Assembly (NCBI RefSeq): GCF_002080045.1 | Contig: NZ_MUIN01000004.1 | Location: 146 to 64,145, forward strand | From: Pseudomonas sp. Bc-h | GTDB lineage: Bacteria > Pseudomonadota > Gammaproteobacteria > Pseudomonadales > Pseudomonadaceae | Length of the DNA stretch: 64,000 bases | Reading direction: 5' to 3' | Shown: positions 13,441-22,234 of the stretch, in pieces | How the letters are laid out: every line of letters starts with the position of its first letter | Position numbering within the stretch: position 1 is the first letter of the stretch | Program-made: the position numbers and the translations under genes | The notes under the pieces: generated by a model | The model's input: the letters and a program-made list of their open reading frames with translations, nothing else | Database searches by the model: none | Told to the model about the DNA's origin: nothing

Positions 13441-14040
13441 TTAACCCTGACGAGTGCCGCCGGTCTGCTTGAGGAAGTTGGCGAACAGCTCGTGGCCCTG
13501 CTCGGAGAGAATCGACTCGGGGTGGAATTGCACACCTTCGACGTTCAGCGTCTTGTGGCGCAGGCCCATAATCTCGTCCACCGAGCCGTCTTCGAGTTGG
13601 GTCCAGGCGGTTACTTCCAGGCAGTCGGGCAATGTTTCGCGCTTGACGATAAGCGAGTGGTAGCGGGTGACGGTGAGCGGATGCTTCAAACCGTCGAACA
13701 CGCCTTTGTCTTCATGAATCAGGTCGCTGGTCTTGCCGTGCATCACCTGACGGGCGCGCACGACATCGCCGCCAAATGCCTGACCGATGGACTGATGCCC
13801 GAGGCAAACACCCAGCACCGGCAGTTTGCCCGCAAAGTGCTTGATCACTTCGATGGAAACCCCGGCTTCATTCGGGGTGCAAGGGCCGGGTGAAACCACG
13901 ATGCGCTCGGGATTCAGGGCCTCGATCTCGGCAACGGTCATTTCATCGTTGCGGATCACTTTAACGTCGGCGCCGAGCTCGCCCAGATACTGCACGACGT
14001 TATAGGTAAAGGAGTCGTAGTTATCGATCATCAGCAGCAT
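13441..14040 (-). CDS. trpG: Anthranilate synthase component II (glutamine amidotransferase)
   Basis: A 199-residue class I glutaminase that supplies ammonia to TrpE. The catalytic triad is C79 in GVCLGHQS with H173 and E175 in FHPES. Its partner TrpE is encoded 4.9 kb away at 18949-20430. A 166-bp region separates the start codon from an upstream Trp-rich leader peptide and hairpin, so trpGDC is probably under attenuation. It could also serve p-aminobenzoate synthesis, as in some Pseudomonas. Confidence 0.97.
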
Positions 14041-14206: not shown

Positions 14207-14251
14207 TCAGGCGCGCCAACGCCAACGGGCGTGAGCCTTGATAACGCGCAT
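14207..14251 (-). CDS. trpL: trp leader peptide of the trpGDC operon
   Basis: A 14-codon open frame reading MRVIKAHARWRWRA, with two Trp codons separated by one Arg codon just before the stop. It differs at only two residues from the 14-residue end of the gph product upstream of trpE. Tandem or near-tandem Trp codons followed by a hairpin are the mark of ribosome-mediated attenuation, and attenuation of both trpE and trpGDC has been reported for P. putida. No strong ribosome site is visible. The frame is open back to an ATG at 14338 (43 codons), but similarity to the second copy fades upstream of this start. Confidence 0.7.
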   Translation of the reverse strand: MRVIKAHARWRWRA

Positions 14252-14262
14252 CAAGAGTTTGC

Positions 14263-14274
14263 TGACAATTGTCA
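14263..14274. promoter_or_regulatory. 12-bp palindrome upstream of the trpG leader peptide
   Basis: A perfect TGACAATTGTCA palindrome lies 11 bp before the leader start codon and would be in the early transcribed region. It could be an operator or an RNA element. It is absent from the trpE copy of the leader. Confidence 0.4.
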
Positions 14275-14303
14275 CAGGAGGGGTCTCATCTATACGTTTC
14301 GGG

Positions 14304-14392: not shown

Positions 14393-15319
14393 TCAGTCTT
14401 GAGCTGATGCAGGATCAAGGAACAGTTTGGATGTCCTGATGCGCAGCCGAGGGGCCACGAAGTCCAGAAAGGCCCGCAGCTTCAACGGCAGCGGCGTTTG
14501 CCCCTTGTGCACCAGGCTGACGGGCAAGGGTTCAGATTCGAATGACTCGAGCACCACGCGCAACGCATCCCCACGCACAGCGTCCTCGACCTGATAGGAC
14601 AATACGCGTATCAGCCCCACGCCCAACGCCGACGCAGCAATCGCGGCCTCGGCTGTATTGACTGCAAGACGGGCGCGAACCGGAACCGACACTTGCGCCC
14701 TCCCGCTACCGAACACCCAGGCGCGTTTCGATTCCAGTACCTCGAAGGTGATGCAGTCATGACCAACGAGATCGTCAGGCGTCGTTGGAACTCCACGGTT
14801 AGACAGATAGGAAGGACTGGCGCAGACGACCCTGCGCACTTTTCCCACTTGAGTGGCCATCAGCGAGCTGTCGGGCAAGTCGCCGATGCGCAAGGCGACG
14901 TCGCCGTGCTCCTCCATCAAGTGCACGACACGATCAGTGAGCATGAGGCTGATGTTGATTTCGGGATAGTGCGCAAGAAACTCGGCAATTACGGGCACGA
15001 CGTGCAAACGGCCGAAAACCACCGGCGCCGTGACCACCAGTTCGCCTTTGGGAGCGGCGTTTTCGCCAGTCGCCGCACGCTCGGCCTCGCCAATGTCCTC
15101 AAGAATTCGCCGACACGCCGCCACGTATGAGCTTCCCGCCTCCGTCAGAGAGAGCTGACGGGTGGTGCGATGAAGCAGCCGAGTATTCAAGTGCGACTCA
15201 AGCTCAGCCACCTTGCGGCTGACTGTCGCCAGCGGCATACCGAGCCGACGCGCTGCCGCTGTAAGACTGCCTGCATCGGCGACTGCGATAAAGATGGACA
15301 TGGCGTCGAGACGATTCAT
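14393..15319 (-). CDS. LysR-family transcriptional regulator
   Basis: A 308-residue LysR regulator. The N-terminal winged helix-turn-helix (residues 1-60, MNRLDAMSIFIAVADAGSL then AARRLGMPLATVSRKVAELE) is followed by a two-lobed effector-binding domain. The HRTTRQLSLTEAG sequence places it in the CrgA/AaeR-like branch. It is divergent from the MFS gene, with a symmetrical ATTCCC/GGGAAT site between them, so it most likely controls that transporter. The effector is unknown. Confidence 0.92.
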   Translation of the reverse strand: MNRLDAMSIFIAVADAGSLTAAARRLGMPLATVSRKVAELESHLNTRLLHRTTRQLSLTEAGSSYVAACRRILEDIGEAERAATGENAAPKGELVVTAPVVFGRLHVVPVIAEFLAHYPEINISLMLTDRVVHLMEEHGDVALRIGDLPDSSLMATQVGKVRRVVCASPSYLSNRGVPTTPDDLVGHDCITFEVLESKRAWVFGSGRAQVSVPVRARLAVNTAEAAIAASALGVGLIRVLSYQVEDAVRGDALRVVLESFESEPLPVSLVHKGQTPLPLKLRAFLDFVAPRLRIRTSKLFLDPASAQD

Positions 15320-15347
15320 GGAAATTCTCTCGAATTTTGGAAGGATG

Positions 15348-15366
15348 ATTCCCGATCTTAGGGAAT
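15348..15366. promoter_or_regulatory. Candidate LysR operator
   Basis: ATTCCC and GGGAAT form a perfect inverted repeat with a 7-bp spacer and fit the T-N11-A LysR box pattern. It lies 29 bp upstream of the regulator start and about 100 bp upstream of the MFS start. Confidence 0.55.
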
Positions 15367-15463
15367 TCTCTTTATATAAGCGAGTGCGTAGGGTTTGAGC
15401 CTAATGATCGGTAAGCGGCGCTCAGCCGCCAACACCCAAGCCACTCAAACTCAGGAGGGTGCC

Positions 15464-16699
15464 ATGAGCAGCCTGCCCAACTCAGCCCAAACCGCCAGCG
15501 CACCGAACGCGCCCACGACAGCGTCGCGGGGCAAAATCATCATGATGGCGATCATCGCGGGCGCGGTGATCACCAACCTGTATTGCGTCCAGCCGATTCT
15601 GCCGCTGATCGCAGCAAGCCTTGCGGTGGACCAGACTACAGTCGATCTCGTGGCGGGCTCGGCCCTGCTGGGTTTCGCCTTCGGGCTCGCATTGCTGTTG
15701 CCTCTGGGCGACCGATTCGACCGGCGCAAGCTGGTGCTGGGGCAAATCATCGTCGCGTTCTTTTTCGGCATGGCGGCGGCTATCTCGCCAAGCATCTGGA
15801 CGTTGATCGCTGCAGCCTTCGGGTTGGGCGTCGTCAGCTGCGTTCCCCAGCAACTGGTGCCCTTCGCGGCGGTGATGTCCAGACCGAGCGAGCGTGGCCG
15901 CTCGGTGGGGACGGTCGTCAGCGGGATCATGGTCGGCATTCTCCTGGGCCGCACGATCAGCGGGTTTGTTGGCGACATGTTTGGCTGGCGGGCAGTCTTC
16001 GCCGTTGAAGCGGCGTTCATGATTCCGGTGTGGATTGCCGCGGCGATGCTGCTGCCCAAGGGCGTGCCCAGCACCAACCTTTCCTACGGGCGCTTGCTGG
16101 CTTCGCTCTGGCCATTGATGCGTGACAACCGTCCGATTCGCGAGTCGATGATCATTCAGGCTCTGCTGTGGGCGTGCTTCAACGCGTTCTGGGTCAACCT
16201 CGCGGCGTTGCTCGCTGACGGCCCGATGCATCTGGGCAGCGCATGGGCGGGAGCGTTCGGCATCATCGGCGCGGCTGGCGCACTCGCCGCTACGTTCGGT
16301 GGTCGTGCCTCCGACAAGTTGGGACCGCGCAGTGTGATCGGCGCCAGCATCGGCATCGTCACCTTGTCTTTCCTGCTCCTGGCTGGCGCCGAATCCTCGC
16401 TGATCTGTCTGGTGATCGGGGTCATCGTCCTCGACATCGGGGTCCAGGCCGGTCTCGTGTCGAACCAGACCCGCGCTTTTGCAGTCGATCCGAAAGCCCA
16501 AGGCCGCATCAACAGCCTATATATGACTGCCACCTTCTTTGGCGGCGCCGTGGGCACGATCATCAGCGGCTGGCTGATGGCGCGACTCGGCTGGGAGGGC
16601 ATCGTCGCCTTCGGGATTCTGTTGGGGCTGATCGCGCTGGCAATTCACTGGATCGGCGCCCCTCGTCATGCAGAGAAGCCCGCGACACCGGGCGCCTGA
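15464..16699 (+). CDS. Major facilitator superfamily exporter
   Basis: A 411-residue MFS protein with twelve predicted membrane segments. The loop 2-3 motif reads LPLGDRFDRRKLVLG, the signature of drug:H+ antiporter-like MFS proteins, and the order of helices fits the YnfM/sugar-efflux-like branch. The ATG at 15464 is chosen because AGGAGG lies 6 bp upstream; an earlier in-frame start at 15395 has no such site. It is divergent from a LysR gene and ends at a terminator. The substrate cannot be deduced. Confidence 0.9.
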   Translation: MSSLPNSAQTASAPNAPTTASRGKIIMMAIIAGAVITNLYCVQPILPLIAASLAVDQTTVDLVAGSALLGFAFGLALLLPLGDRFDRRKLVLGQIIVAFFFGMAAAISPSIWTLIAAAFGLGVVSCVPQQLVPFAAVMSRPSERGRSVGTVVSGIMVGILLGRTISGFVGDMFGWRAVFAVEAAFMIPVWIAAAMLLPKGVPSTNLSYGRLLASLWPLMRDNRPIRESMIIQALLWACFNAFWVNLAALLADGPMHLGSAWAGAFGIIGAAGALAATFGGRASDKLGPRSVIGASIGIVTLSFLLLAGAESSLICLVIGVIVLDIGVQAGLVSNQTRAFAVDPKAQGRINSLYMTATFFGGAVGTIISGWLMARLGWEGIVAFGILLGLIALAIHWIGAPRHAEKPATPGA

Positions 16700-16781
16700 A
16701 GGCTTCGCCGACATCAGATGCAGAAACAAACCACAACAAGCAGCACTAAACGCATCCTCTTGACCCCAATGCCCCGGCGCT

Positions 16782-16814
16782 GGGTGTCTACCTCCGCGGT
16801 GGACACCCTTTTTT
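16782..16814 (+). terminator. Intrinsic terminator after the MFS gene
   Basis: An 11-bp stem (GGGTGTCTACC with GGTGGACACCC, one G-T pair) has a 5-base loop and is followed by six T. It ends the MFS transcript before the autotransporter gene. Confidence 0.85.
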
Positions 16815-16940
16815 ACCTCTCTTCGTTTGACTTGACTCTTTTTCGACACAAATACGTCCTGCGTGACACAAAGCATGGCGGGTTGTCTCGTGGCTGCTAC
16901 CTTGTCGTACAGCAACAAAAAGACAAGAAGGGATCTCTCG

Positions 16941-18881
16941 ATGCTCAAAGCCACAATGTCGCGGCCCTTTGCCGCCTGCCTGCTCACCCTTGCCTGCTCC
17001 TCAGCGATGGCAGCATCCTCCCCCTACTCGACGATGATCGTGTTCGGCGACAGCCTCGCCGATGCCGGTCAATTCCCCGATGCTGGCGGCCCGCCGGGCG
17101 CAACGTTGCGCTTCACCAACCGCGTCGGGCCGACCTATCTCAACGGCAGCGGTGAGGTCTTCGGGCTGAACTCGTCGACGCTGCTGGGCGGGATGCTCGG
17201 TGTCGCACCGGGCGATTTGCAAGCATCTACGTCTCCGGTACGCGCAGCGCAGGGTCTGGCGGATGGCAACAACTGGGCGGTGGGCGGGGATCGGACGGAT
17301 CAGATCCTCGCGGCGATCACCACCGAGTCGCAAGTGGCGAATACCGATACGTCCACGGGCGTGACTACGGTCTTTCGTACCCGGCCCGGTTATCTGGTGG
17401 AGACCGGTCTGCGCGCAGACCCGAACGCGCTGTATTACCTGACCGGCGGGGGAAATGACTTCCTCCAGGGCCGAGTACTGAGCCTGGGGCAGGCGGTCAA
17501 CGCTGCCAATAACCTCGCCGACAGCGCCCAGGTACTTTCGCAGGCGGGCGCGCGCTACATCATGGTCTGGCTGCTGCCGGATATCGGCCAGACTCCTGCG
17601 GTTTCCGGCACTCCATTGCAAGGGCCTTCGACGCTGCTCAGCGGTGTGTTCAATCAGCAACTGGTCAATCGGCTGGGGCAGATCGATGCCGAAGTCATCC
17701 CGCTGAACGTTCCGGGACTGGTGCGCGAAGTCCTGAATGATCCGGCGCGGTATGGTCTGGCAGCCGATCAGAACCTCGTCGGCACCTGTTTCAGCGGCAA
17801 CAGCTGCACCGCCAACAGTGTGTATGGGATCGGTGGCCTCACGCCCGACCCCACCAAGCTCCTGTTCAATGACGGCGTTCACCCGACCGTTGCCGGGCAA
17901 CGCCTGATTGCTGATTACGGCTATTCGATCCTCTCCGCGCCATGGGAAATCACCCTGCTGCCGGAAATGGCCAACGGTACGTTACGCGCACAACAGGACG
18001 AGCTGCGCAGTCAGTGGCTGGCGGACTGGGGCAATTGGCAGAACGTCGGCGAGTGGCGTGCCATCGTCGCAGGTGGTGGTCAGAAACTGGACATTGACGC
18101 GCAAAGCAATTCCGCCAGCGGCGACGGCCATGGCTACAACCTGACCATCGGTGGCAGCTACCGATTTGCTGAAGACTGGCGTGCCGGTCTGGTCGCTGGC
18201 GCCTATCGACAGACGCTGGAAGCCGGGCCTCGCGATTCGGACTACAAACTCAATAGCTACATCGCCACCGCATTCGTGCAGTTTCAGGCCAATCATTGGT
18301 GGGCCGATCTGGCGGCATCGGGTGGACGACTGGACTACGACAATCTGAAGCGCAAATTCGCCCTCGGCATCAGCGAAGGATCGGAAAAAGGCGACACCGA
18401 TGGCGACCTGTGGGCGGTCAGCGGTCGCCTGGGATTCGACATGGCCGAACAGACCAGTCGCTGGCATTTCTCGCCCTTCATCAGCGCGGACTATTCCCAT
18501 GTCGAGGTCGACGGTTATTCGGAGAACAGTACGCGCTCGACAGCCCTCAGCTACGACGATCAGACCCGCCGTTCGAAACGTCTGGGCGCAGGGTTGCAAG
18601 GCAAGTTCGAGACCACCCCGCAGACTCAGGTATTTGGCGAGATCGCGCACGAACGTGAGTTCGACACCGATCAACAGGATTTGACCATTGCCGTGAACAG
18701 CGTGCCTGGAGTGGATTTCAACCTGGAAGGCTATGAGCCACAGCGCAGCCTGAACCGGGCAAGTGTCGGCCTGGCCCAGAAACTGGCGCCGGACCTGACG
18801 CTGCGCGCCGGCTACAACTGGCGCAAGAACGATGACGTGACGCAGCAAGGGGTGAATCTGGCGCTGAGTCTGGATTTCTGA
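16941..18881 (+). CDS. estP: GDSL esterase autotransporter (EstA/EstP type)
   Basis: A 646-residue type V secreted esterase that stays on the cell surface. A signal peptide ends near residue 24 (AMA). The GDSL passenger shows the nucleophile S38 in [13 protein letters not shown] at 169-173, and the D311-x-x-H314 pair in NDGVHPT, so the catalytic set is complete. From about residue 370 to the end is a 12-strand beta-barrel translocator that closes with Phe. The start at 16941 is set by the signal peptide. P. aeruginosa EstA affects rhamnolipid production and motility. A homologue near trpE is known in P. putida. It ends at a strong terminator facing trpE. Confidence 0.9.
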
Positions 18882-18948: not shown

Positions 18949-20430
18949 TCAACTTTCCGGCGTCTGCTCCGCCAGTGCTACCGCGCGGAACATGGCGCGG
19001 CGCTTGTTCAGGGTTTCTTCCCACTCAAGCGCAGGCACCGAATCGGCAACGATCCCGCCGCCAGCCTGGACGTGCAGCTCTCCGTTCTTGATCACTGCGG
19101 TGCGGATGGCAATTGCAGTGTCCATGTTGCCGTTCCACGCCAGATATCCCACGGCCCCGCCGTAGACGCCACGCTTGACCGGCTCCAACTCGTCGATGAT
19201 TTCCATCGCACGAATTTTCGGTGCGCCCGACAAAGTACCCGCTGGCAGAATGGCGCGAAGTGCGTCCATCGCCGTCAGCCCGCTTTTCAGTTGGCCGGTG
19301 ACGTTGGACACGATATGCATCACGTTGGAATAACGTTCGATGACCATCTTCTCGGTGAGCTTCACCGAGCCGATTTCCGAGACGCGGCCAGTATCGTTAC
19401 GGCCCAGATCGATGAGCATCAAGTGCTCGGCGATTTCCTTGTCATCGGAAAGCAGGTCAACTTCCAGCGCGTGGTCCGCTTCTTCGGTCGCGCCGCGAGG
19501 GCGAGTTCCGGCGATTGGCCGTACGGTGATCAGGTTGTCTTCGACGCGCACCAGCACTTCCGGCGAACTGCCGACGACGTGGAAATCGCCGAAGTTGAAG
19601 AAATACATGTACGGCGTCGGGTTGAAGCAACGCAGTGCGCGATAAAGATCGATCGGCGCCGCCTTGAAGTCGATCGACATCCGCTGCGACGGCACGACCT
19701 GCATGCAGTCGCCCGCCAGGATGTATTCCTTAATGGTGTCGACAGCTTTCTCGTAATCGCTCTGAGTGAAACTCGAACGGAACACCGGATCGGCCGCTTG
19801 CGGACGCGTCAGGTCCAGGCCACGACGTGGCGTGATCGGCTGACGCAGTTTTTCCATCAACTGTTCCAAGCGCGCGAGACCACTTTCGTAAGCTTCGGGC
19901 TGCGCTGGATCAACGAGCACGATCGCGTGCATCTTCCCGGCCAGGTTGTCGAACACCACCACGGCATCGGACACCATCAACAGGATGTCCGGCACGCCCA
20001 GCGGATCAGGATTCGGGCATGCACCCAGACGCTGTTCCACGTAACGCACGCAGTCGTAACCGAAGTAGCCCACCAGGCCGCCATTGAAGCGAGGAAGACC
20101 TGCAATGGTCGGGACGTTGTAACGCGCCTTGAAGGTTTCGACGAAGGCCAACGGGTCTTCGGCTTCCAGGCTTTCGATCTCGACGCCGTCAAGGGTCACG
20201 CTGATCTTGTGCTCATGCACTCGCATCACGGTGCGACATGGCAGACCGATGATCGAATAACGGCCCCACTTCTCGCCGCCCTGAACGGACTCCAGCAGAT
20301 AGGAGTTCGGCTCGTCGGCCAGTTTGAGGTAGATCGACAGCGGCGTGTCGAAGTCGGCCAGGGTTTCAAGGGCAAGCGGGATGCGGTTGTAGCCTTCAGC
20401 GCCCAAACGCAGGAATTCTTCGCGGATCAT
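18949..20430 (-). CDS. trpE: Anthranilate synthase component I
   Basis: A 493-residue chorismate-using enzyme that makes anthranilate with TrpG. The [15 protein letters not shown] segment near residues 45-60 forms the Trp feedback site. The C-terminal catalytic half carries PSQRMS, GTRPRG and [12 protein letters not shown] motifs. It lies 69 bp after the end of gph on the same strand, with a Trp-Arg-Trp leader and a GCCGG/CCGGC hairpin in between. This suggests both read-through from rpe-gph and attenuation. Confidence 0.97.
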
Positions 20431-20475
20431 GATCAGCCTCGTGGTCTGAGGTAAAACGGTCAGGTGTGCAAACGC

Positions 20476-20489
20476 GCCGGAGAGCCGGC
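20476..20489 (-). promoter_or_regulatory. Leader hairpin upstream of trpE
   Basis: GCCGG and CCGGC pair across a 4-base loop, 10 nt after the leader stop. The 3' arm continues into GGCGCG, which can also pair with CGCGCC at the last codons of the leader peptide. That gives two mutually exclusive structures, as expected of an attenuator. Only a short GTTT follows. Confidence 0.55.
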
Positions 20490-20499
20490 CAGATTCAAG

Positions 20500-20544
20500 T
20501 CAGGCGCGCCAACGCCAACGGGCCAAGGCCTTGATGACTTTCAT
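20500..20544 (-). CDS. trpL: trp leader peptide upstream of trpE, nested in gph
   Basis: An internal ATG at 20544 in the gph frame opens 14 codons, MKVIKALARWRWRA, and shares the gph stop codon. It matches the trpG leader peptide at 12 of 14 residues. Ribosomes finishing gph would also read the two Trp codons, so attenuation of trpE could work with or without a separate initiation here. Whether a free peptide is made is inference; no clear ribosome site precedes the ATG. Confidence 0.6.
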   Translation of the reverse strand: MKVIKALARWRWRA

Positions 20545-21330
20545 CCAGAGTTTGCGAGTGACCACCACGATGGATTCTCTAAAGGAGGGAGATTTGACGT
20601 CGGGCAACGTTATCTCAGCCCCATCTTCTAAGCAACCGCCAGTGCAACCCGTAATCAGTTTGCGCAAATCATCGATTACCAATGCCGGCGATTCCTCGGC
20701 AATCGGACGACCGTGGTTGTAGCCATAACTAAGCGCGACACAGCTGACGCCCGCAGCCTTCGCCGCCAGTACATCGTTGCGCGAGTCGCCGACAAACAGC
20801 GATTGCGAACCCGACGCGCCGGCCATCTTCATCACGAAGAACAGCGCCGCAGGATCAGGTTTCTGCTGTGGCAAGGTATCGCCACCGACGATCCAGCGAA
20901 AGAAACGGCCAAGCTTCATGTCATCCAGCAAGGGCGCGACAAACTGCTCGGGCTTGTTGGTGATGAGGGCCATTTCCACGCCATTTTTTTGCAGCCACTT
21001 CAGCGCTTCACGCACGCCAGGATAGACCTTGGTCAGGGAGTGATCGCCGCCATAGGCTTCCATGAATATGGCCAGCGCCGATTCAGTGGAGGCCTCATCG
21101 ACGCTGGAGTGATCCATGTCGTTGGCCAGCGCGCGACGCACAAGCACCCGTACGCCGTTGCCGATCCAGTCGCGTACACGCTCGATGCCCGCAGGCGCAC
21201 GGCCGAGCTGAAGCAGGGTTTTGTCCACAGCTGCGGCCAGGTCCGGCACCGAGTCGACCAACGTCCCATCCAGATCGAACATGATCAGTTTGGGGAGGCG
21301 ACCCGGAAACAGCTGTTCGAAGCCGCTCAT
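20500..21330 (-). CDS. gph: Phosphoglycolate phosphatase
   Basis: A 276-residue HAD-superfamily phosphatase that removes 2-phosphoglycolate formed by DNA repair or oxygenation. Motif I is FDLDGTLVDS with D19 and D21, motif II is ITNKP, and motif IV is VGDSRNDVLAAKAAG. About 40 C-terminal residues extend past the HAD core and end in a basic ARWRWRA tail that is identical to a trp leader peptide, so the tail may exist for regulation and not catalysis. The ATG at 21330 overlaps the rpe stop by one base (TGATG), giving translational coupling. The gene feeds directly into trpE. Confidence 0.93.
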   Translation of the reverse strand: MSGFEQLFPGRLPKLIMFDLDGTLVDSVPDLAAAVDKTLLQLGRAPAGIERVRDWIGNGVRVLVRRALANDMDHSSVDEASTESALAIFMEAYGGDHSLTKVYPGVREALKWLQKNGVEMALITNKPEQFVAPLLDDMKLGRFFRWIVGGDTLPQQKPDPAALFFVMKMAGASGSQSLFVGDSRNDVLAAKAAGVSCVALSYGYNHGRPIAEESPALVIDDLRKLITGCTGGCLEDGAEITLPDVKSPSFRESIVVVTRKLWMKVIKALARWRWRA

Positions 21331-22001: not shown

Positions 22002-22114
22002 GACGCACCTTTTTTGAGCGAAATCACGGTGGCGCGCATTGTACTCCAAGAGTTTGAAACATGGGTTGTGTGGCGGATGAATGCGGTTTTACGTGAATCC
22101 GTACGCGGTCCATC

Positions 22115-22212
22115 GTGGGAGCTGCCGGCGGTTACGACGATGAGAGCCGCATCTGGACGAAAGCGGTGTCAGGCACCGCATCGCCACCGTCGTGACCTCC
22201 GGCAGCTCCCAC
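22115..22212. repeat. Large REP-doublet inverted repeat
   Basis: Perfect 14-bp arms, GTGGGAGCTGCCGG (22115-22128) and CCGGCAGCTCCCAC (22199-22212), enclose about 70 bp with a smaller CGGTG/CACCG hairpin. It lies between the rpe start and the permease stop. The size and form fit a Pseudomonas REP doublet mobilised by a RAYT transposase, although no such transposase lies in the window. Confidence 0.75.
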
Positions 22213-22234
22213 AGAGGATCGTGATAAGCCGGGA

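Follow-up and report, generated by a model that had tools for sequence, protein, structure and literature searches.

In the trpL system of E. coli, a separate leader ORF with two tandem Trp codons is followed by a terminator with a U-tract. Systems of the SecM/TnaC type rely on dedicated regulatory ORFs with nascent peptides. In Pseudomonas putida, attenuation of trpE and trpGDC was reportedly described by Olekhnovich and Gussin in 2001, and a published study is said to link miaA to this regulation. Excerpts of a study in P. aeruginosa describe premature 3' ends beside a GTG uORF in the trpGDC leader, predicted solely in azithromycin-treated biofilms, and estimate that termination in this species is mostly factor-dependent (PMC8297930). 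Excerpts of another source place the ampC promoter of E. coli within the coding region of the upstream frd operon, the upstream terminator being an attenuator (PMC11838884). The locus analysed here shares something with each of these systems.

The window, i.e. the whole stretch that we analysed, comprises 64,000 nt of Pseudomonas sp. Bc-h (contig NZ_MUIN01000004.1), and coordinates are window positions throughout. Its minus strand carries rpe, gph and trpE in this order, then trpGDC further on. The gph ATG (21330-21328) shares one base with the rpe stop, and the trpE ATG, at 20430, lies 69 nt beyond the gph stop. An earlier note on this DNA had claimed that the end of gph contains, in frame, a trpE leader with two tandem Trp codons; this is indeed what we find, and at the same positions. 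The relevant features are:

20500-21330, minus strand: gph, phosphoglycolate phosphatase (NF009698, 517.7 bits, covering 2-277)
20630-20635, minus strand: predicted -35 box TTGCTT of a trpE promoter, within gph (scan for promoter-like pairs)
20607-20612, minus strand: predicted -10 box TAACGT, 17 nt past the -35 box, within gph (same scan)
20500-20568, minus strand: putative trpE leader ORF, (GTG)VVTRKLWMKVIKALARWRWRA, 22 codons plus TGA, in the gph frame (from the comparison of loci)
20506-20517, minus strand: tandem Trp codons, TGG CGT TGG CGC (core CGN TGG CGN TGG CG)
20476-20489, minus strand: hairpin P2, GCCGG-CTCT-CCGGC, starting 10 nt after the stop (conserved stem)
20437-20440, minus strand: trpE ribosome-binding site GAGG (from position and conservation in the alignment)
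18949-20430, minus strand: trpE, anthranilate synthase component I (TIGR00564, 568.6 bits)

As in trpL, an anthranilate synthase gene is preceded by a short leader ORF, which has two Trp codons in tandem, and by a hairpin downstream of this ORF. Yet, the E. coli leader is a separate ORF backed by a U-tract, whereas the leader of the window forms the C-terminal end of a different gene and no U-tract follows. The P. putida case involves the same genes, genus and regulatory idea, and its leader is very likely the same. Attenuation of trpE by a leader with Trp codons, as reported for P. putida, is the most likely picture. The resemblance to SecM and TnaC is that a ribosome on an upstream ORF would control a downstream gene, but those ORFs are dedicated to regulation and here a metabolic enzyme gene carries the putative leader. 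The premature 3' ends and the factor-dependent termination of P. aeruginosa, as described in the excerpts of PMC8297930, fit the attenuation picture. As for frd-ampC, described in the excerpts of PMC11838884, a downstream promoter would likewise lie in upstream coding sequence (predicted boxes at 20635-20607 in gph); the difference is that the window has a leader with Trp codons in the gph frame and that no terminator was found in 20380-20700. We found no description of the gph fusion in the open literature, outside which most subscription papers fall.

We consider it likely, with a probability of roughly 60%, that the final ~50 codons of gph also serve as the control region of trpE and that slowing of ribosomes at the Trp codons raises trpE expression at low tryptophan. 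The predicted promoter inside gph would give a short transcript, whose translation from the GTG at 20568 would be the main sensor. On longer rpe-gph-trpE transcripts, ribosomes completing gph would enter the leader in frame and reach the same Trp codons, so that read-through transcripts might be attenuated too. The final step might be an end of transcription or a block of trpE translation; since there is no U-tract, our guess is Rho-dependent termination. That the ribosomes of gph sense tryptophan is a plausible conjecture. Yet, gph translation would be at most a second input, because the leader, with its likely start at GTG, is longer than the earlier note supposed, because it does not require gph and because the hairpin is not recognisable as a terminator. 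Nor would this route be essential, since P. aeruginosa-like and other groups have no fusion and it was lost twice within the fused lineage.

The HAD domain of Gph ends at about residue 227 (about position 20650) and a tail of about 50 residues extends beyond. The NCBIfam model TIGR01449 matches residues 17-226 and the Pfam domain PF13242 likewise ends at residue 226. Since general models such as TIGR01449 describe Gph without a tail, the tail is probably a derived state. The gene closes with MKVIKALARWRWRA-TGA (14 codons and the stop, 20544-20500, minus strand), i.e. with the residues WMKVIKALARWRWRA before a TGA that ends at 20500. The curated NCBIfam model of phosphoglycolate phosphatase, NF009698, extends through the last residue of the leader (window 20500-20570); annotation thus counts the trpE leader as enzyme sequence.

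To place the window among its relatives we used 230 loci: the closest 80 of 575 relatives, 89 from 119 genomes of the genus, 60 from a sample of the family, and the window itself. These loci are not independent, species may be repeated and all unfused genomes of the genus search were included deliberately. The recurrence of the tail together with the gene order in 168 of the 230 loci is far beyond chance, and is not a prevalence because the set is enriched for unfused genomes. In the genus search, the best gph match extended to the end of the tail (residue 276 or 277) in 101 of the 118 matching genomes; the genome G079 gave no gph match at the cutoff and no leader match. We found trpE downstream on the same strand in 226 loci, the other 4 having no trpE in the stretch examined. 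The core CGN TGG CGN TGG CG occurs upstream of trpE in 221 of these 226, and its invariance among the 221 leaders is a consequence of the search pattern. The five loci without the pattern are L227, L229, L232, L238 and L239. Two of them, L238 and L239 (genomes G124 and G140, of another genus), have diverged leader-like ORFs ending in WHRWRCCA before trpE, which suggests that the pattern undercounts leaders. No such leader was found in G150 and G180, where the stretch examined contained no trpE. Among 145 genomes of the order, a strict pattern was found in 5, which are the 5 members of the family of the window in this sample, and diverged forms may escape it.

Fused loci, where the gph frame runs through the entire control region to the leader stop, make up 168 of the 221, window included. 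In the remaining 53, gph has an early stop and the leader stands apart from it; most often this stop comes soon past the HAD domain, and the leader occupies the interval up to trpE. Every fused locus has trpE next (168/168). The earlier note had asked whether the tail occurs in genomes with trpE elsewhere. We found no such case, all 168 fused loci having trpE downstream, so that the refuting condition named by the note did not come true. In two genomes of one genus, G159 (L211/L275) and G134 (L213/L277), about 2.2-2.4 kb separate gph from the leader and trpE. The leader thus stays with trpE when gph is distant or unfused, and therefore belongs to trpE and not to gph. The leader does not require gph, given the leaders outside the gph frame and the two losses of fusion that keep the leader.

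Two further features bear on where the leader starts:

20542-20544, minus strand: internal ATG, the start favoured by the earlier note (absent in some relatives)
20576-20580, minus strand: AGAGA, perhaps a weak ribosome-binding site for the leader, 7 nt upstream of the GTG (SD-like pattern)

The leader was previously taken to be 14 codons long, starting at the internal ATG. Six of 197 distinct trpE leaders have no such ATG. Nor do 24 of 33 distinct trpG leaders, which mostly read LLDQVIKAH, and all 33 have the GTG (counted by eye). These 33 are the 37 rows of comparison-set loci minus L189 and L193-L195, whose leaders belong to trpE. Every one of the 221 trpE leaders has a GTG in frame, 48-75 nt before the CGN-TGG core, and in 210 of them its context is CGTGG. 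When CGTG was sought irrespective of frame, 30-80 nt upstream of the core, 52 of the 53 unfused loci had exactly one; in all 52 it was in the frame of the leader, at distances of 48, 54, 60 and 63. Only the leader itself demands this frame in unfused loci. Since the ATG is absent in relatives and the GTG and its frame persist, the GTG is the best start. We therefore rejected the ATG, and predict the GTG at 20568 as the most likely start, rather than the ATG at 20544. An SD-like tetramer (any of eight) lies at most 16 nt from the GTG in 168/168 fused and 48/53 unfused loci, a broad pattern counted without a chance control. We also discarded an argument for the GTG from leader length changes in multiples of three; it is circular because the GTG was chosen in frame.

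The window has a second leader, before trpG:

14207-14275, minus strand: separate homologous leader before trpG, (GTG)TIVSKLLMRVIKAHARWRWRA, 22 codons
14181-14195, minus strand: hairpin following the trpG leader, GCCGG-TTCAC-CCGGC (from sequence)
13441-14040, minus strand: trpG (trpG/pabA-type), glutamine amidotransferase of anthranilate synthase (TIGR00566, 295 bits)

If both leaders start at their GTG, they are of equal length, 22 codons. That the gph end nearly equals the trpG leader, another claim made before, is borne out: the latter ends in MRVIKAHARWRWRA, also on the minus strand, and 12 of 14 residues are identical. The pattern YGGCGYTGGCG has three matches in the window (both leaders and 63477) against 0.64 expected, and none of 100 shuffles reached three. 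In the window, 6.3 kb separate the trpE leader from the trpG leader; in the listed relatives the distance is mostly about 3.7-4 kb (by eye). Between trpG and trpE (14393-18881) lie, judging by translations alone, what we take to be a LysR-type regulator, an MFS-type transporter and a GDSL autotransporter-like ORF.

The predicted promoter is conserved with the leader. A loose pair, TTGNNN-N16-18-T[AG]NNNT, occurs 95-160 nt upstream of the core in 221/221 loci, where base shuffles average 12, and the strict form in 207/221 leaders against 0.4 in shuffles. The boxes are coding sequence in fused loci and lie after or across the gph end in unfused ones. In the fused tail, the codons that bear them (GGT TGC and ATA ACG) are among the few that are constant. 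GTG, promoter-like boxes and leader are all present in 221 of the 226 Pseudomonadaceae loci with trpE downstream. From alignment and pattern counts, the promoter-like boxes, the GTG, the leader and the hairpin are conserved together as a single block, whether or not the fusion is present. In one locus (L118, genome G009) the fusion was lost by a frame shift and the gph stop is now the TAA of the -10 box, so that the predicted promoter supplies the stop codon of gph.

The hairpin after the leader is also conserved. Among 81 selected loci, 77 have a P2 stem of at least 5 pairs, which starts 8-10 nt past the stop in 76, and 73 have a stem score of at least 13 against 9.8 in shuffles; altered arms remain paired. 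The earlier note had described a hairpin after the gph stop and then trpE. This order stands, but the hairpin is not recognisable as a terminator: a scan of 20380-20700 found no terminator-like site, P2 has no U-tract, and at least 5 T within 8 nt after P2 occur in just 6 of the 81 loci. We thus rejected a classical intrinsic terminator, i.e. a GC hairpin with a U-tract. The folded leader was no more stable than shuffles (z 0.96), folds of the RNA masked by a ribosome revealed no clear switch, and the accessibility of the trpE SD showed no clear difference among the masked states (0.20 free, 0.26, 0.26). At gathering thresholds, Rfam found a single tRNA in the window and nothing else.

Several compensated cases suggest a further helix, P1, on mixed evidence:

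20550-20555, minus strand: 5' strand of the suggested long-range helix P1, GCAAAC (leader codons 5-7)
20468-20473, minus strand: 3' strand of the suggested helix P1, GTTTGC, directly after P2

Relatives show compensated cases, e.g. CACACAC/GTGTGTG and GCACAG/CTGTGC. The strands are paired in 460 of 567 cells, a figure that none of 2000 shuffles equalled, and pairing within a species exceeds pairing across species in 17 of 22 divergent loci. The column pair 49-127 of P1 ranks fourth among all pairs in a ranking that carries relatedness, since its ranks 1 and 3 are not base pairs. The P1 score is passed by 74 of 81 loci, but shuffled windows pass in 37.9 of 81. With 52 of 57 rows, pairs changed on both sides numbered 3 against 3.6 in shuffles, and the covariation score was matched by 8 of 500 shuffles. 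The long-range helix is thus a suggestion only.

If the control region belongs to trpE, why does gph run through it? Our tentative answer, on which we would not wager at even odds, is that in one large Pseudomonas lineage gph swallowed the promoter and leader of trpE, and that the frame has since been kept for ribosome traffic alone, so that translation of gph would report the tryptophan supply to trpE; the stretch would be maintained as a track for ribosomes and not as protein. It is possible, if somewhat doubtful, that the control region works solely through its own promoter and GTG and that the fusion is a neutral by-product of a lost gph stop. Such neutrality accords with the 53 of 221 leaders that lie outside the gph frame, and with the only two losses inside the fused clade, L118 and L132, both frameshifts that left the leader intact (the loss in L132 may be a sequencing error). 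So does the lack of coding periodicity in the linker. Changes at codon positions 1/2/3 number 8.8/5.2/7.8 in the linker and 2.9/1.8/10.5 in the HAD domain of the same 40 tips, which are fused and of one linker length; the linker has no coding signature. We do not claim positive selection from a linker omega above 1: multiple hits score as nonsynonymous, and the even spread over codon positions is the safer reading.

Two observations are at odds with neutrality. First, between the HAD domain and the GTG there were 406 codon changes over 54 tips; were nonsense changes tolerated, about 10 more changes of this kind would be expected. We found no loss of fusion by a stop codon in the fused lineage, where the fused label itself demands an open frame and losses would appear as unfused rows within the fused clade. 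Second, length changes mostly keep the frame. Between the -10 box and the core they were in phase in 9 of 11 cases in the fused clade against 6 of 23 outside (Fisher p 0.0035; strict promoters only, two unfused members of the clade included). Between the HAD end and the -35 box, 7 of 8 were in phase in the fused clade, or 9 of 10 with two events (8 to 35 and 8 to 38) that were dropped as alignment-end artefacts. Both stretches combined give 16 of 19 against 6 of 23 outside (p 0.0002). These counts replace earlier ones (12/15 against 5/27, Fisher p 0.00018) that were anchored on the in-frame GTG. The strict -10 box stands at a single phase from the core in 166/166 fused loci, which is partly built into the definition of fused, whereas 41 unfused loci are split 15/13/13 among the three phases. 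This suggests that selection keeps the path open from gph into the leader, and not the amino acids on the way. A route by which gph ribosomes reach the Trp codons would explain an open frame despite linker codons that have no coding signature.

The fusion likely arose once. In a FastTree phylogeny of 112 rows (L020 and L139 left out for their short TrpE, fused rows thinned by identity and unfused rows kept whole), the fused rows form one clade with two nested losses and a weak basal support of 0.207. A quick IQ-TREE tree of 56 rows, rooted on the distant L241, puts the root among fused rows and needs 4 changes, and a single fused clade is not rejected (p-AU 0.175). Under another root, the unfused groups could reflect an early gain with one old loss, an event outside our counts.

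The leader itself is constrained both at the amino-acid level and at synonymous sites. Its omega is about 0.19, against 0.16 for TrpE and Gph, and its synonymous rate is 2.29 against 6.24. It shows 95 synonymous changes in 15 codons, fewer than any window of 15 codons in TrpE and Gph (138 at the lowest), a comparison to be read knowing that four leader codons (Trp, Met) permit no synonymous change. Conserved residues other than Trp in the trpE and trpG leaders (KA.ARWRWRA), together with the low omega, might evoke a true arrest peptide, whose nascent chain would be sensed in the ribosome tunnel beyond the sensing of codon starvation. We deem this improbable. The omega is no lower than that of TrpE and Gph, and since synonymous sites are constrained too, constraint on the RNA could explain much of the conservation. 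The miaA link, reportedly published, also points to tRNA-dependent decoding. Even less probable is that the tail is kept for the sake of Gph itself (its stability, or its binding to a membrane or a partner) with an incidental leader overlap, for although the frame is maintained and NF009698 covers the tail to its final residue, linker changes are spread evenly over codon positions and the conserved parts are the promoter boxes and the leader, which are conserved also outside Gph.

Leader peptides are usually viewed as small stand-alone ORFs, and here a likely sensor leader and a predicted promoter lie inside the C-terminus of an enzyme. If ribosomes coming from gph read the Trp codons, tryptophan would control even those transcripts that bypass the promoter of trpE, and the gph linker may be an open frame selected without regard to its amino acids. 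Attenuators hidden inside upstream genes would escape searches that start where the upstream gene ends, as does the method described in the excerpts of PMC2965389.

Two minor observations concern the surroundings of the fusion. In L134 (G051:C1:1591760-1596374; the genome is flagged as 9% contaminated) there is a tandem duplication: after gph comes the start of a trpE that continues, in frame, as the end of a second gph, and then another leader with trpE, with 1374 nt between the first gph stop and the matched trpE. In the window, the gap before rpe (22113-22213) contains the inverted pair GTGGGAGCTGCCGG / CCGGCAGCTCCCAC, which resembles a REP-type repeat.
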